Translations under genes and position numbers: made by a program
In this document: piece by piece, positions 19,393 through 64,000 of the stretch
How positions within the stretch are numbered: the stretch's first letter is position 1
How the letters are laid out: each line of letters starts with the position of its first letter
The notes under the pieces: model-generated
Told to the model about the DNA's origin: nothing
Databases searched by the model: none
What the model saw: only the letters and a program-made list of their open reading frames with translations
Source of the DNA: Corallococcus macrosporus DSM 14697
Lineage (GTDB): Bacteria > Myxococcota > Myxococcia > Myxococcales > Myxococcaceae
DNA length: 64,000 nt
Assembly: GCF_002305895.1 (NCBI RefSeq)
Contig: NZ_CP022203.1
Coordinates: 62,001 to 126,000 of the forward strand
Reading direction: 5' to 3'

Positions 19393-19878
19393 TCAGAGGT
19401 GTTGGAGGTGCTCGGCCGTCCGCTCCTCGCGGACGTTGCCGGTGTTGAGCGTCGTCGCGGGCTCGAAGAGGAGGACGTGGACCTCCTCCTCCGCCACGGG
19501 CCGGTGCTCCACGCCGCGGGGGATGATGATGAACTCACCCGGGCCCACGTCCACCGTGCGCTCGCGCAGCTCCATGCGCAGGTGGCCATGAAGCACGAGG
19601 AACAGCTCGTCCTCGGCGTCGTGCTGGTGCCAGACGAAGGGGCCGTGGAGCCGGGCCAGGCGGACGTGCTGGCCGTTGAGCTCACCCACCACCTTCGGAG
19701 ACCCATGCTCGGAGAAGAGGGCCAGCTTCTGTGCGAGGTTGACCTTGTCCACCACCTCGGGGGCCGGTACCTCCTGGGCCGCCCGGGCGGGCGCGGCACC
19801 GGTGCCCACCCGGCGGCGGGAGTCCCAGCGCGGACGGCGTCCGGCGAGGCCCGTGGGACTGCGATGAGGCGCGCTCAT
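19393..19878 (-). CDS. Cupin-domain protein
   Basis: A 161-residue protein with a single C-terminal cupin barrel (residues about 45-145). Motif 1 is VWHQHDAEDELFLVLHG (H, H, E ligands) and motif 2 is PRGVEHRP. It resembles small cupins that begin DKVNLAQKLALFSEHGSPKV, but carries an additional 40-residue Arg/Ala-rich N-terminus. The ATG at 19878 has GGAAGGAG upstream, which supports the longer form. Metal-dependent enzyme or binding function is unknown. Confidence 0.82.
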   Translation of the reverse strand: MSAPHRSPTGLAGRRPRWDSRRRVGTGAAPARAAQEVPAPEVVDKVNLAQKLALFSEHGSPKVVGELNGQHVRLARLHGPFVWHQHDAEDELFLVLHGHLRMELRERTVDVGPGEFIIIPRGVEHRPVAEEEVHVLLFEPATTLNTGNVREERTAEHLQHL

Positions 19879-20062
19879 GCGGGTGTCGTCTCCTTCCGCG
19901 GCGCCGCTGCGTTGGCTTGCGCCATGATTCCGAATTCGGAGTGTCTGCCTTCTGCGGAGGATAATCCCGCCTGTCGGCGCGCGGGAGTGGCCGCGAGGTC
20001 GACTACCCGACGGATGGCGTGAAACACCGCGCCCGCGTGTCGCGAAGGTGTCTGTCTCCGGC

Positions 20063-20986
20063 TCAGTCCGGGAAGAACATCGGGTCGCGCGTGGTGACGA
20101 ACGAGGAGATGGCGCTGGCCACCTCCGGCGGCAGCCCGGTGAACTGCACCCCCACGCCCGGCATCAGCTCCGGCGTGCGGGAATTGGCCTCGCGCACCCA
20201 GCGCACCACGCCCGTCACCTTCATGGGCCGCCCGCCCGGCAGGGTGAAGTCCAGCTCCACCTGCGTGCCGCGCGGCACCGCGTCCACCGTGGCGATGAAC
20301 ACGCCGCCCTCGCTGATGTCCAAGGAGAAGCCGGTGAAGAAGTTCGAATCGCTGCGCATGTCGATGGACGTGTGCATCCGCACCCGCCCGTTGCGCCTCG
20401 CGTCCTTCTCCGGCGCGGGGCGGGCGGGGGCCGCGGGAACGGGCGCATGTCCCTGGGCCTTCGCCGCCGCGGCCGCTCGCGCCAGCTCGGCCTGCCGGGC
20501 CTTCGCCGCTTCGTGCTGCGCGCGTGACGCGGCTTCCTGGCGGACCCGGGCGGCCTCGGCCTGACGCTCGAGCACCGCGTCCGCCTCGGCCACCGCGCGG
20601 GCCACCTGCGCGGCCTGCTCCTGGTGCGCCCGCAGCAACGCCTGCATCTCCGAGCCCGCCTGCCGCCGGGCCTGGAGCGCCGCCTGGCGGGCCTCCAGCG
20701 CGCGGGCGCGCGGCGCCTCCATGTCCAGCGCGGGCACCGCGGCCAGCTGGAGCCGGGAGGCCTGTTCCCCGAGCATGGGGTCGGCGCCCGGCGCCTGGTG
20801 GGCCCGCGTCAGGGCCTGCCGCGTCTGCTCCAGCCGCGTGGCCAGGGCGGAGGCCTCCGCGCTGGCCTGGGTGAGTTGTTCATGGAGCCGGGCCTCCAGC
20901 GTGGACAGCTCGCTCTCGGCGCGAGCCAGCTCCGCTTCACGGGAAGCAGCCGGGGGCATGCGGGCAGCAGGGGACGGCGAGCTCAT
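20063..20986 (-). CDS. Coiled-coil PilZ-domain protein
   Basis: A 307-residue cytoplasmic protein. Residues about 15-190 are Ala/Arg/Gln-rich and predicted as a long coiled coil (repeated EARQAALQARRQAG-like heptads). Residues 198-305 form a PilZ domain of the kind common in myxobacteria: RRNGRVRMHTSIDMRSD, then FTGFSLDISEGGVFIAT and VGVQFTGLPPE. Canonical c-di-GMP binding needs RxxxR and (D/N)xSxxG; here 'RRNGR' and 'DISEGG' are present, so ligand binding is plausible. It lies downstream of rtcB on the same strand with a 141-bp gap. Confidence 0.87.
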   Translation of the reverse strand: MSSPSPAARMPPAASREAELARAESELSTLEARLHEQLTQASAEASALATRLEQTRQALTRAHQAPGADPMLGEQASRLQLAAVPALDMEAPRARALEARQAALQARRQAGSEMQALLRAHQEQAAQVARAVAEADAVLERQAEAARVRQEAASRAQHEAAKARQAELARAAAAAKAQGHAPVPAAPARPAPEKDARRNGRVRMHTSIDMRSDSNFFTGFSLDISEGGVFIATVDAVPRGTQVELDFTLPGGRPMKVTGVVRWVREANSRTPELMPGVGVQFTGLPPEVASAISSFVTTRDPMFFPD

Positions 20987-21127
20987 TCGCTTGGGACTCC
21001 AGGGGCGCCACTGTAGCGCCCCCCGGACGGCCCCACGAGCCCTACGCGCCGAGCCGGAAATGACCCGGGGGCCCGGCCGCCCCGCCGGCCTTTGGCAGGC
21101 AGGCGGCCATGCGCCGCCCGGCCCGCC

Positions 21128-22480
21128 TCAGTCCGCGCCCTTGATGCAGGCCACCGGCTTGAGGCGCCAGGCCACCCGGGCCAGGCCGGCCATCTCCACC
21201 GTCTCCAGGACGTCGTCCAGGTTCTTGTAGCAGGGCCCGGACTCGTCCAGCGGCGTCTGGCGGGTGTTGAGCAGGATGCCCGCCTCCGCCATGCGCTTGT
21301 CGGTGGCGTCCTGCTTCAGCACGCGCTTCGCCTCGCCGCGCGACAGGCGGCGGCCGGAGCCGTGGTTCACCGAATAGATGGACTTCTGCGCGCCTTCTTC
21401 CGCGAAGAGGATGGCGCTGCCCGTCTCCATGGAGCCCGGGATGAGGATGGGGTGGCCCGTCTTCTCCCAGGGCGTGCCCTTGAGGGCGGGGTGGCCGCCC
21501 GGGAACGCGCGCGTGGCGCCCTTTCGCGCGACGAACCTCCCCGCCTCCTTCTGGATGAGGTTGTGGGAGATTTCGTAATACACGCTGGCCGTGCCGCCGA
21601 AGACGTCCTCCAGCGCGGCGCACACCGCCTCGCCGATGATGAGCCGGTTGGCCACCGCGAAGTTGGCCGCCATGTTGTGGAGGTTCCAATAGTCACGGCC
21701 CAGCGGGCTCTCCGCGTCCAGCCAGACATGGTCCTCGCTGCGGCTCTTGAGGCCCAACTGCGCGGCGCCCTCCACGAAGAAGTGCTTGGCGATGTTCCAC
21801 CCGAAGCCGCGGCTGCCGGTGTGCAGCATCACCCACACGCGGCCGTCCTGGTCCACCTGCATCTCGGTGAAGTGGTTGCCACCGCCCAGGCTGCCAAGCT
21901 GCTCACGCTTGCCGAAGGCGCGCTCGGGGATGTCCACCCGGTCGTCCTCCACGGGGATGTAGTCGCGCTCGGTGACGGACGAGCCCCGGCCCAGTGCCTT
22001 GGCTCCGTGGCGCACCACGTCCGCGAAGGTGCGGTCCGTCACCCGCCGCTGCTTCTGCACGCGGCTGGCGCCCACGCCCACGGCGATGCGCCGAGTGACT
22101 TCTTCAATCCAGCGGCGGCGCTTCGTGGCGTCGGCGACGTCCTCGGCGGTGAGCGTCGTCTGCAACTGCACCATGCCGCAGCCGATGTCGTAGCCGGCGG
22201 CGGTGGGCAGGAGGATGCCGTCCGTTTCCACCACGGTGCCAATGGGCACCCCGTAGCCCAGGTGACAGTCGGGCGTGACGGCCACCCGGGTGACCCCCGG
22301 GAAGGACGCGGCATTCACCACCTGGTCAAAGACGGAGTCCTCCAGGCCGGGTTGCTCGGGGCCCTCCCCCCAGAGCAACTTGTCGGAGAGGAACAGGTCC
22401 GCATCGACCTTCATGCTCTTGGTTTTTGGGAGGACGAAGTGCCCCTCCGAGACCTTCTCCAACCGCTGCTTCCAGCTCAT
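21128..22480 (-). CDS. rtcB: RtcB-family RNA ligase
   Basis: A 450-residue RtcB protein, a GTP- and Mn-dependent ligase joining 2',3'-cyclic phosphate and 5'-OH RNA ends. Visible active-site features: TPDCHLGYGVPIGTV, AAGYDIGCGM (Cys101, metal ligand), GSLGGGNHFTEMQ, MLHTGSRGFG, VYYEISHNLIQ, GSMETGS and the guanylylated histidine in VNHGSGRRLSR. The start at 22480 (MSWKQRLEKVSEG) is taken because it matches the family N-terminus; the longer frame adds unrelated residues. The C-terminal ACIKGAD is typical. Release of the usual archease partner is not seen nearby. Confidence 0.95.
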   Translation of the reverse strand: MSWKQRLEKVSEGHFVLPKTKSMKVDADLFLSDKLLWGEGPEQPGLEDSVFDQVVNAASFPGVTRVAVTPDCHLGYGVPIGTVVETDGILLPTAAGYDIGCGMVQLQTTLTAEDVADATKRRRWIEEVTRRIAVGVGASRVQKQRRVTDRTFADVVRHGAKALGRGSSVTERDYIPVEDDRVDIPERAFGKREQLGSLGGGNHFTEMQVDQDGRVWVMLHTGSRGFGWNIAKHFFVEGAAQLGLKSRSEDHVWLDAESPLGRDYWNLHNMAANFAVANRLIIGEAVCAALEDVFGGTASVYYEISHNLIQKEAGRFVARKGATRAFPGGHPALKGTPWEKTGHPILIPGSMETGSAILFAEEGAQKSIYSVNHGSGRRLSRGEAKRVLKQDATDKRMAEAGILLNTRQTPLDESGPCYKNLDDVLETVEMAGLARVAWRLKPVACIKGAD

Positions 22481-22757
22481 GACGCAAATCCCCCAGATGG
22501 GATGAACACGCGGCAGCGACGGGAGCGTCCAGGGAAGCTGACGCCAGGGGCCGGGACCCGAAGACAGGAGAAGAGGATGCTGGGGGCACAGGCGGGAAGG
22601 CGAGCGGATTCGGAGCCACACGCGGCCGCGTCCGGGTCCGGCATGTCCGGGCGAAAGTCAGCCCGAGAGCGGACGGCGACGTTCCGATCGCCCCGGGACT
22701 TGTCACGTCCGGATTCCATTCCCATCCATTCCGCAGCATCCAGGTAGGGGGTGGGCG

Positions 22758-60765: not shown

Positions 60766-61995
60766 TTACCCCTGGAGCAGGGGCACGCGCTTCCAGTGGG
60801 CTTCGATGCGGTGGCGGCTCTCCTCCGGCAGCGGGAGCTGGGCCTGCAGCGAGGACCAGGTGTCGAGCGACGCCTCCACCGCGCGCTTCACCACGGGCAG
60901 CACGTCGCTGGTGGGCAGCTCCAGCTTCCGGGCCAGCCGTTCAAAGCCGCTCAGGGAGATGTCCTCGAAGCGCTTGGAGCGGGCGAAGTTGAGCGCGAGC
61001 GTGTCCGCCGGCATGTACTGGAGCGTGGACACCAAATCGTACGCGGGCGACAGCGTGGCGCGCGTGCCGTCCGGGTAGAGCAGGGACCAGTTCTTGTGGT
61101 GCGCGTCCCCGTTGCCAATGACGGCGATGAACACCAGCCGCCGCAGGAACTCATGCAGCGCGTCCAGGCCGGCGACCTTGTAGATGACGTTGGCGACCGT
61201 CTCGTAGTTGTACTTCTTGTACTTCTCGTCCGCGTACAGCCCCAGCACCTGCGTCAGGTCCTCCATGTGGACGCGGCGGCCGGGCTCGGGGCGGTCGAAG
61301 CGGCGCACGGCGTAGGCCACGTCCTCGCGCAGGGTGATGCCCTCGGGCAGGCCCTGGATGTCCGCCACGTTCAGCAGCGTCACCTCCGGCACGGTGATGC
61401 CGGCGGCGCGGGCCCACGTCATCATGGAGAACTCATTCTCCGGGACGCGGTCGTAGCGGTTGTCCGGCAGCTTCACGATCCAGTTGCCGCCGCGCCCGCC
61501 CGCCGGGAGCGTCATGGCCTTGTCCCGGCGCAGCATGGAGAACTTGAGCTGCACGCCCGCCAGCGAGAAGCGCAGCGGCTCCTGCTCCCGCGGCGCGTGG
61601 GGCGCCTGGGCGTCCTCCTCCACCGGCTCCAGGCCGCTGAGGGACAACACGCTGGCGGGCCGCACCACGATGGCGCCGGGCAGGTCCTCGCCCAGCCTGG
61701 CGATGAGGAAGAACTCGCGCTGGCGGGCCACCTGCTCGCGCTCCGCGATGAGCTCGCGCAACGTGCCCTCCGGCAGCAGGTTGGAGAAGAAGGAGGGCAG
61801 GCGCAGGCGGCTGGTGTGCCGGCGCGTGAGGTCGTCCTCGAAAATCTGCCCCAGCACCGGGCGTGGGTAGCGCTGGCGGTACTCCTCCGAGATGACGAAC
61901 TCGATGCGCTCGTCCTCCAGCAGCGTCAACGTGCCGACGTGCACGTCGCCCAGGTGGACGTCCAGGATTCCGGCCGTGGCGCGGGTGGGCTCCAA
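60766..61995 (-). CDS. HipA-family Ser/Thr kinase, in operon with DUF262 and lacking HipB
   Basis: A 409-residue full-length HipA-type kinase. It has the N-terminal HipA-specific domain (LDVHLGDVHVGTLTLLEDER, PSFFSNLLPEGTLRELIA), the QLKFSML and WIVKLP (Lys175) segments of the ATP pocket, the catalytic GNGDAHHKNWSLL (Asp297, Asn302) and SPAYDLVST (Asp320). All catalytic residues look intact, so it should phosphorylate a target, glutamyl-tRNA synthetase in E. coli HipA. TTG 61995 starts 1 bp after the DUF262 stop, with AGGAGGAGG upstream. No HipB-like helix-turn-helix gene is present on either side; DUF262 takes its place. That is the odd point. Confidence 0.88.
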   Translation of the reverse strand: MEPTRATAGILDVHLGDVHVGTLTLLEDERIEFVISEEYRQRYPRPVLGQIFEDDLTRRHTSRLRLPSFFSNLLPEGTLRELIAEREQVARQREFFLIARLGEDLPGAIVVRPASVLSLSGLEPVEEDAQAPHAPREQEPLRFSLAGVQLKFSMLRRDKAMTLPAGGRGGNWIVKLPDNRYDRVPENEFSMMTWARAAGITVPEVTLLNVADIQGLPEGITLREDVAYAVRRFDRPEPGRRVHMEDLTQVLGLYADEKYKKYNYETVANVIYKVAGLDALHEFLRRLVFIAVIGNGDAHHKNWSLLYPDGTRATLSPAYDLVSTLQYMPADTLALNFARSKRFEDISLSGFERLARKLELPTSDVLPVVKRAVEASLDTWSSLQAQLPLPEESRHRIEAHWKRVPLLQG

Positions 61996-61996
61996 G

Positions 61997-63670
61997 TCAG
62001 TCCTCCTCCTCGACGACCAGGGATTGGAGGGACGGACGGTCCGACTCCTCGTAGCGGGTGCGGGCGCGCAGGAACTCGATGATGTGTCTATCGATGAGCT
62101 CCATGCGCTGCATGAGGAATTCGAGCGTGCCGCCCTCGCGCAGCGTGGCGCGCATGGCGGGGGTGATGGCGTGGCTCTGGAGGACCTCGGGCGGCGGGGC
62201 GGGCTCACCGCGCAGCACGTCCACCAGGGCCAGGCCCGGCAGGGGCGGGTGCAGCAGGTAGTTGGCGGGCGTGAAGAGGAAGGAGCGGTAGAGCGCGGGG
62301 TCCAGCTTCAGCTCGGCGTCGGGCTCCTGCACGTTGAGCGACTTGAGCACGGGGCTGAGGCTGGCGGGCTCGGTGTCGCTGAAGAGCTGGGGCGTCTCCA
62401 GCAGGGCGCCGGTGCGCAGGTGCCGGGGCTGGAGCGCGTACAAGGCGTTGAGGGCCATGCCGCGCGAGCGCAGCGCCAGGCCGAACGTGGCGGGCTGCGC
62501 GTGCTGGGCCAGCCATTCGTCGGAGAGCGGCCGCACCTGCGCCAGCAGCGACTGGACGGACTGCTCCTCATCGGGGCCAATGGCGGCCAGCAGCTCCTGG
62601 GGCGACAGGGCCCGGCTGTCCAGGAAGCTGTCCACCAGGGTGCCGCGCCAGAAGCCGCGCGCGAGCAAGTCCCGGGTGCGCGGAGACGGCTCCGGGTGGA
62701 GGTGGAAGAAGCGCGCGAGCAGCACGAAGTAGAGCGGGTTCGTCATCAACCGCCCGTGGGGGATGCCCGCGTCGCGCTTGAGGAAGACGATGACGCTGCG
62801 CAGCGCCGCCTCCGTCTGGAGCAGCGTCTCGGTGAGGTCGTCCTCCTCGCGCAACTGCTTCTGGAAGTCCTGGGTGAAGTCCAGGCCGCGCACCGCGAGC
62901 ACGGCCCGCAGCAGCAGGGACTCGTCGACGCGGCCGAAGCCCAGCTCCACCAGGCTGTTGGCCAGCGCCTTCAGGTTGGGCAGCCTCGAGCCCGCCGCGC
63001 CGCCGTAGAGCGCGTTGAAGACCTCGTCGTCGGTGAGCGGCTTTCCGGAGGTGTTGAGCCGCTTGAAGATGATGCGCAGCGTCTTCTCCTCCGCGGCTTC
63101 AACGACATACGCGGGCATCTGGTACTCGCGCGCCGCCTTGCCCAGGCGGATGGCCGCGCGGACGTGCTCCGGGTTCTTCTCCCGGCCGGGGTAGCGGTCC
63201 AGCCAGCCCAGGAGCTGCTCGCTGTCCAGCACCCGGTTGAGCGGCAGCCAGTGCGGAGGCGGCAGCTCGCCGGGCGCGAGCGGGACGATTTCCTGCGTGT
63301 CCAAGTCGAAGAAGAGCGTGAAGCCGTCATGCGCGGTGGGCTCCTGCTCCGGGTGGAGGAGCACCGCGGCCAGCGCGGTGATGCGCTGCTGCCCGTCCAC
63401 CACCCACAGCGCCTGGCTGTGGGAGGGCGCGTCGATGCGCACCGGGCCGAAGCTCACGCTGGCGGCGGGGGCCTCGCGCTTCCAGAAGAGCAGCGTGCCA
63501 ATGGGGTACCCGCGGTAGACGCTGTCGAGCAAATCCCTCACATCGCCGGCCTCCCAGCGCAGGGGCCGCTGGAAGTGGGGCAGTCGCACCTCACCTCGCC
63601 GGACGCGGTCCAACAGGTCCTCGATGCTGAATGCCGTCGCCTGGGGACGCCGTGTCAGGGTGGATTGCAT
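61997..63670 (-). CDS. DUF262 (GmrSD/ParB-like) protein upstream of HipA
   Basis: A 557-residue cytoplasmic protein with the DUF262 core: VRLPHFQRPLRWEAGDVRDL, then WVVDGQQRITAL (DGQQR, 92-96, the ParB-fold nucleotide-binding motif) and TLRIIFKRLNTSGKPLTDDE. The C-terminal 300 residues are helical and lack the HNH (DUF1524) nuclease signature of GmrD. DUF262 proteins occur in modification-dependent restriction and other phage-defence systems. ATG 63670 has GAGG upstream; the longer frame is implausible. It is the first gene of the DUF262-HipA operon. Confidence 0.88.
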   Translation of the reverse strand: MQSTLTRRPQATAFSIEDLLDRVRRGEVRLPHFQRPLRWEAGDVRDLLDSVYRGYPIGTLLFWKREAPAASVSFGPVRIDAPSHSQALWVVDGQQRITALAAVLLHPEQEPTAHDGFTLFFDLDTQEIVPLAPGELPPPHWLPLNRVLDSEQLLGWLDRYPGREKNPEHVRAAIRLGKAAREYQMPAYVVEAAEEKTLRIIFKRLNTSGKPLTDDEVFNALYGGAAGSRLPNLKALANSLVELGFGRVDESLLLRAVLAVRGLDFTQDFQKQLREEDDLTETLLQTEAALRSVIVFLKRDAGIPHGRLMTNPLYFVLLARFFHLHPEPSPRTRDLLARGFWRGTLVDSFLDSRALSPQELLAAIGPDEEQSVQSLLAQVRPLSDEWLAQHAQPATFGLALRSRGMALNALYALQPRHLRTGALLETPQLFSDTEPASLSPVLKSLNVQEPDAELKLDPALYRSFLFTPANYLLHPPLPGLALVDVLRGEPAPPPEVLQSHAITPAMRATLREGGTLEFLMQRMELIDRHIIEFLRARTRYEESDRPSLQSLVVEEED

Positions 63671-63800: not shown

Positions 63801-64000
63801 TTATGAGCTTGGGGGGGGAGCGTGCTTGACGGGCGCCCGGCCGCCCTTCAACATGCCGTCCACGTTTCCTCCTCGGAGTGAGACGCGGCGGCGGTGATTG
63901 CCTCCCCCAAAAGCGACACCGCCGTGGAAGTCCCAGTTGAGCCCCGCGCGCCGCGTTCCCCCTCTCGGCGCGCGGTGGCCCCTGGGATTCTTGGTTCGCC
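63801..64000 (-). CDS. Possible 3' end of a leftward gene
   Basis: From the window edge a leftward frame is open for 65 codons and ends at TAA (63801-63803). It reads ...LNWDFHGGVAFGGGNHRRR..., then KGGRAPVKHAPPPSS. Codon choice is not decisive and no family is recognised, so this may be chance. If it is real, it is encoded on the same strand and upstream of the DUF262-HipA operon. Otherwise 63671-64000 is only the promoter region of that operon. Confidence 0.25.
   Translation of the reverse strand, partial: RTKNPRGHRAPRGGTRRAGLNWDFHGGVAFGGGNHRRRVSLRGGNVDGMLKGGRAPVKHAPPPSS

Follow-up and report, generated by a model that had tools for sequence, protein, structure and literature searches.

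What does a HipA kinase do when hipB is missing and the gene directly upstream codes for a DUF262 protein? HipA kinases are classic persistence toxins that arrest growth and are known by their small DNA-binding helix-turn-helix (HTH) antitoxin. In Corallococcus macrosporus DSM 14697, the gene of such a kinase follows a DUF262 gene near the end of the 64,000-nucleotide stretch analyzed here (contig NZ_CP022203.1, positions 62,001 to 126,000; hereafter "the window", position 1 being its first letter). A first interpretation of these letters (the sequence-only reading) had taken the two genes for one functional unit, undescribed and possibly serving defence, with DUF262 as sensor or antitoxin. 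We found that the two genes occur together in many phyla. With moderate confidence we regard the pair as a coupled module in which a nuclease-less DUF262 sensor or regulator controls a HipA kinase effector, similarly to HipAD; the sequence-only reading as a whole was partly supported.

The gene pair and its recurrence

The features of the locus are, in window coordinates:

61997 to 63670, minus strand: DUF262 (GmrSD_N) gene, 557 amino acids, ATG start, TGA stop
60766 to 61995, minus strand: HipA kinase gene, 409 amino acids, TTG start, TAA stop
62003 to 62011, minus strand: AGGAGGAGG, presumptive ribosome-binding site of hipA, within the final DUF262 codons (..EEED-stop)
63566 to 63571, minus strand: QR motif of DUF262, residues 34-35, conserved at 99-100%
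63383 to 63397, minus strand: DGQQR motif of DUF262, residues 92-96, in 60 of 61 aligned relatives
63053 to 63067, minus strand: FxxxN motif of DUF262 (FKRLN), residues 202-206, in 60 of 61 aligned relatives
61564 to 61566, minus strand: HipA Ser144, counterpart by alignment of the autophosphorylated Ser150 of E. coli HipA, invariant in 73 pairs
61036 to 61107, minus strand: HipA catalytic stretch from D297 (GNGDAHHKN, including N302) to D320 (AYDL), by alignment with E. coli HipA, invariant

The arrangement described in the sequence-only reading, with a DGQQR-bearing DUF262 gene upstream and the TTG start of hipA 1 bp past its TGA, was confirmed. The distance from AGGAGGAGG to the TTG is 6-7 nt, and an acidic, GAGGAG-like tail such as the one around this site recurs at the ends of many related DUF262 genes.

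A search with a DUF262 alignment through 84,980 species genomes (GTDB) produced 389 relatives, and the analysis continued with the best 80. A HipA gene was situated directly downstream on the same strand in 77 of these 80, while the three exceptions were at contig ends or had a truncated DUF262. The best 80 come from Myxococcota, Pseudomonadota, Acidobacteriota, Cyanobacteriota, Actinomycetota, Planctomycetota and other phyla. Since 77 of 80 relatives over so many phyla are paired, chance adjacency is excluded, and there is strong support for a single functional unit that lacks HipB. The gap between the two genes had a median of 0 bp, with overlaps being common; the HipA start was at most ~30 bases from the DUF262 stop, with a single exception at ~130 bases.

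The association was equally visible from the side of the kinase. In a set of 41 relatives, each of the 15 HipA matches that surpassed E 1e-50 was directly behind DUF262, while the weaker ones were not. In 195 genomes of Myxococcota, a search with a HipA alignment (cut-off E 1e-60) gave 50 matches; 48 of them adjoined an upstream DUF262 gene, one further pair was split by contigs, and the fiftieth match had an HTH gene of HipB type in place of DUF262. The sequence-only reading would have failed if homologs of this HipA usually occurred without DUF262, and the opposite was observed. All four strong HipA matches in Actinomycetota (396 genomes) also had DUF262.

The pairwise distances of the DUF262 and HipA proteins were correlated with r of 0.92, compared to at most 0.21 in 999 shuffles; the correlation partly reflects shared descent and was 0.59 among distant pairs. 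Both genes are under purifying selection, with the ratio of nonsynonymous to synonymous substitution rates (dN/dS) from 0.13 to 0.44.

No third gene of the unit was common to the loci beyond close relatives. Two candidates were considered and rejected: a gene for an S-adenosylmethionine (SAM) methyltransferase, which follows HipA or is fused to it only in a part of Myxococcaceae, and aspS, a possible HipA target found upstream of the pair only at three related loci of Methylococcaceae type, which is explained by shared descent. As for the methyltransferase, the DUF262-linked HipA of Corallococcus loci (L040-L053, e.g., L041:1827-3851) carries it as a C-terminal fusion, while some Myxococcus species have it as a separate gene after HipA; in some of them it persists without the pair.

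The kinase and the position of HipB

The protein encoded behind DUF262 has the Pfam domains HipA_C (E 4e-51) and Couple_hipA (E 2.5e-17), the latter spanning residues 11-111. Residues S150, K181, D309, N314 and D332 of E. coli HipA (in its established numbering) align with S144, K175, D297, N302 and D320, all five being invariant in the 73 pairs. The full set of catalytic motifs noted earlier thus holds: it includes the serine that is autophosphorylated, the lysine that binds ATP and the residues for catalysis and metal binding. At one locus, in a metagenome-assembled genome of Deltaproteobacteria (L080:9602-13324), DUF262 is followed by two HipA kinases of the same clade, the first of which bears a 347-aa extension without a Pfam match.

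The absence of hipB was also borne out. A hidden Markov model of HipB type had no match in the whole window and the 10 kb upstream of DUF262, and its sole match was ~100 kb away, adjoining a different hipA. A HipB hidden nearby was therefore rejected. At that other locus (G000:C1 ~19,563-22,707; L283:2064-5208) the HTH gene overlaps a diverged hipA, which is followed by a second diverged hipA.

Closely related kinases outside the clade do have HipB. A search of 369 genomes of Gammaproteobacteria with a cut-off of E 1e-55 yielded 25 HipAs; in 23 cases a HipB-like HTH gene was in the same upstream, mostly overlapping position, one HipA had DUF262, and one was cut by a contig end. In two kinase trees, made with 97 and 101 sequences, the DUF262-linked HipAs formed a group that excluded E. 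coli HipA and other HipAs of Myxococcota, while the HipB-linked relatives were basal in the same larger clade (support 100). Because HipB fills the slot of DUF262 in the kinases that are nearest to the clade without belonging to it, the DUF262 protein appears to be a replacement of HipB, and the suggestion that it takes the antitoxin's position gains direct evolutionary support. The simplest reading of the trees is that a hipBA module swapped HipB for a DUF262 protein about once and that the pair then spread as a unit.

The DUF262 protein and related systems

The only Pfam domain of the DUF262 protein is PF03235 GmrSD_N (E 2e-30). An N-terminal ParB/Srx-like domain (approximately residues 10-225) is followed by a helical C-terminal region. 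The protein carries the QR, DGQQR and FxxxN motifs known from GmrSD-type enzymes, with F202, R204 and N206 conserved at 99-100%. On the other hand, the DUF1524 (GmrSD_C) domain had no match at E up to 10, and the nuclease motif EHxxP was at no fixed position across 61 relatives.

The AlphaFold model (predicted local distance difference test score 86.8) matched BrxU over most of its length with Z of 16 and a large root-mean-square deviation, perhaps due to domain movement; matches to SspE had Z of 9-10, and the N-terminal half matched ParB-type nucleotide-binding domains with Z of ~7. Between species the C-terminal half diverges fastest, with 45-60% identity compared to 68-84% for the N-terminal half and 78-88% for HipA. 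Such divergence would suit a specificity region, and relaxed constraint would give the same picture. Other DUF262 relatives in Myxococcota have as partners PDC-M55B, an Mrr-like nuclease or a fused Schlafen-type domain; therefore, one sensor-like scaffold seems to be combined with different likely effectors.

With hipBA the pair shares the kinase architecture, the catalytic residues and an upstream overlapping partner gene, the HipB-linked HipAs being the nearest outgroup; the partner there is an HTH antitoxin, while here it is the 557-aa DUF262 protein. In hipBST the kinase is split, with N-subdomain-1 made as the separate HipS, whereas here Couple_hipA sits inside HipA. Type IV restriction systems with DUF262 and DUF1524 (GmrSD, BrxU, SspE, GrwAB) share the three motifs and, for BrxU, the overall fold (Z 16), but their DUF1524/His-Me nuclease motif is not found here and a kinase gene takes the place of the effector. 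The DUF262 domain has been described as a likely sensor of DNA modification whose hydrolysis of nucleoside triphosphates regulates the effector (PMC12137116).

The closest functional parallel is HipAD (DS-6, or PDC-M66 in PADLOC), which is likewise a two-gene unit of a HipA-type kinase and a partner other than HipB. Its partner is DUF3037/DUF1829, while the partner here has GmrSD_N only and is unrelated by Pfam. For HipAD/DS-6 the anti-phage activity has been validated; it depends on the HipA kinase, and toxicity results when the partner is deleted (PMC13092281, PMC12548924).

The claim that the unit is undescribed holds for a collection of 5.39 million open-access papers and is qualified by PADLOC, which lists a distant DUF262 relative with a different partner, the candidate PDC-M55C. 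Ten gene organizations of HipA kinases, classed by partner gene, were given by Gerdes et al. 2021 (hipBA, hipAB, hipBST, hipEB, yjjJ, hipRF, hipRG, hipMP, hipL, hipIN, hipJS), none of them with DUF262, and no such partner is named in the text of that paper. A survey of the open-access literature, as distinct from subscription papers and preprints, showed nothing relevant joining DUF262 or GmrSD with HipA, and HipA is unmentioned in a phylogenomic survey of GmrSD. Component C of PDC-M55 can be aligned with our DUF262 protein in full length (E 8e-59), yet the score was 198 bits here compared to 588 bits at a locus that also holds PDC-M55B. There was no match to PDC-M55B in the C. macrosporus genome, although the same model does detect its gene at L280, and HipA had no match to the PDC-M55 models. 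Identity with PDC-M55 was rejected, as only the DUF262 component is shared, and distantly. The L280 locus itself (L280:403-3044, genome G012), from another Myxococcus genome, has a clear PDC-M55B-PDC-M55C pair in which PDC-M55B is without a Pfam domain. As far as the open-access literature goes, the pair is best called an undescribed HipA-kinase module with an exchanged partner.

Possible role of the pair and its chromosomal setting

The pair would work as one translationally coupled module with the HipA kinase as effector. The DUF262 protein, positioned in HipB's slot, would most likely hold the kinase off; it is a member of the nucleotide-dependent DNA-modification sensors of the GmrSD/BrxU/SspE group and is without a recognizable nuclease. 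The signal that releases HipA may be DNA that is foreign or modified, or a change in nucleotides on infection; the kinase would then phosphorylate a target in the cell (a tRNA synthetase in characterized HipAs) and stop growth. Judging by family and motifs, it is reasonable to see in DUF262 a sensor of phage or DNA, as had been proposed, and a role of the pair in defence is plausible; this role, the sensing and the inhibition of HipA by DUF262 are what we infer. More tentatively, a GmrSD-type sensor lacking the nuclease might hold and release HipA so that modified phage DNA causes kinase-driven growth arrest, the whole being an abortive-infection system that was assembled once by replacing HipB and is now present across many phyla.

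The chromosomal setting is best seen in Myxococcus. In 13 species the pair is situated between a gene of an M28-type peptidase and a gene of a histidine kinase, and in 13 other species the same two neighbors have neither DUF262 nor HipA between them. Thus, at one locus in 26 species both genes are either present or absent, the pair being gained or lost as a unit; no convincing remnants of it were seen in the Myxococcus species without it. The histidine-kinase gene adjoining HipA is conserved in 27 Myxococcus genomes. Upstream of DUF262, a 146-base intergenic stretch (63846-63991) keeps ~90% identity in nearly every Myxococcus species examined, whether or not the pair is present; the region including it had no Rfam match over the gathering score for a structured RNA. 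The space upstream of DUF262 is variable, and in two Myxococcus genomes it holds genes of a Tox-REase-5 toxin and Imm52 immunity protein, parts of polymorphic toxins (L027:3603-5979 and L030:13157-13966). Only in the C. macrosporus genome a Shedu gene (SduA, DUF4263; PADLOC E 1e-87), followed by a gene of a DUF6310 protein, is inserted between DUF262 and the peptidase gene; it is at L035:11185-12375 on the plus strand, approximately window 65,184-66,374, just past the window end. Neighborhoods of the pair do not look like defence islands as a rule, the Shedu gene adjoining it in this genome only.

Several observations weigh against the proposed module and its role in defence. The place of the pair in the Myxococcus chromosome is fixed, unlike that of many mobile defence systems; its neighbors are mostly housekeeping genes, and no PADLOC family was found in more than 1 of 122 flanking genes. 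Plasmids (2 of 72,556 records at a cover of at least 80%) and viral contigs hardly ever hold the pair, and carriage by phages or plasmids was rejected given almost no occurrences. Support is only 83 for the branch that unites the DUF262-linked HipAs to the exclusion of the HipB-linked ones; therefore, a single origin is likely, not certain. A joined-chain model of the Lamprocystis pair, in which the in-frame stop between the genes was read as a residue, had each part folded well but no confident DUF262-HipA interface (predicted template modeling score 0.60). Finally, a frameshifted DUF262 gene stands beside an open HipA at L084, L089 and L105, which a strictly required antitoxin would forbid unless the frameshifts come from sequencing errors or HipA is dead as well. 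The genome of L089 is from an isolate with high coverage, and its frameshift is possibly real decay.

The fixed site and the housekeeping neighbors would also fit a plain chromosomal toxin-antitoxin or stress module, in which DUF262 only neutralizes HipA and the pair serves dormancy, persistence or development and not phage defence. E. coli HipBA acts as such a module. The purifying selection on both genes agrees with this view, as does the presence of the pair in all 16 genomes of group g20 (Corallococcus, by matching loci). We consider it rather unlikely all the same: the DUF262 proteins of known function are phage-defence sensors, the patchy presence in Myxococcus species and the wide spread over phyla suggest exchange, and a Shedu gene is inserted beside the pair in C. 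macrosporus.

The roles could also be reversed, with DUF262 as a diverged type IV restriction enzyme that acts as effector and is regulated by HipA through phosphorylation. An alignment with BrxU and SspE is still possible in its C-terminal region and extends to the C-terminal half of SspE (Z 9.1), and S499-H500 and R522 in this region are well conserved. However, the missing DUF1524 and EHxxP, and a C-terminal half that is the least conserved part of the DUF262 protein while the kinase site is invariant, make this improbable. That the genes are mere neighbors with unrelated roles, or a decaying module, is hard to credit: the few loci with a broken DUF262 and open HipA and the missing interface in the joined-chain model would fit, but the 77 pairs among 80 relatives from many phyla, the overlap of start and stop codons, the correlated divergence and the joint presence or absence speak strongly against it.

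If the module of a DUF262 regulator and a HipA effector is real, a large clade of HipA kinases whose antitoxin was exchanged for a protein resembling DNA-modification sensors would connect two families that have each been studied well. A natural comparison is offered by close HipA relatives that have either HipB or DUF262. The pair would be a testable case of antitoxin replacement and would suggest that kinases of this type act as effectors for more than one phage sensor, in agreement with the recent validation of HipAD.
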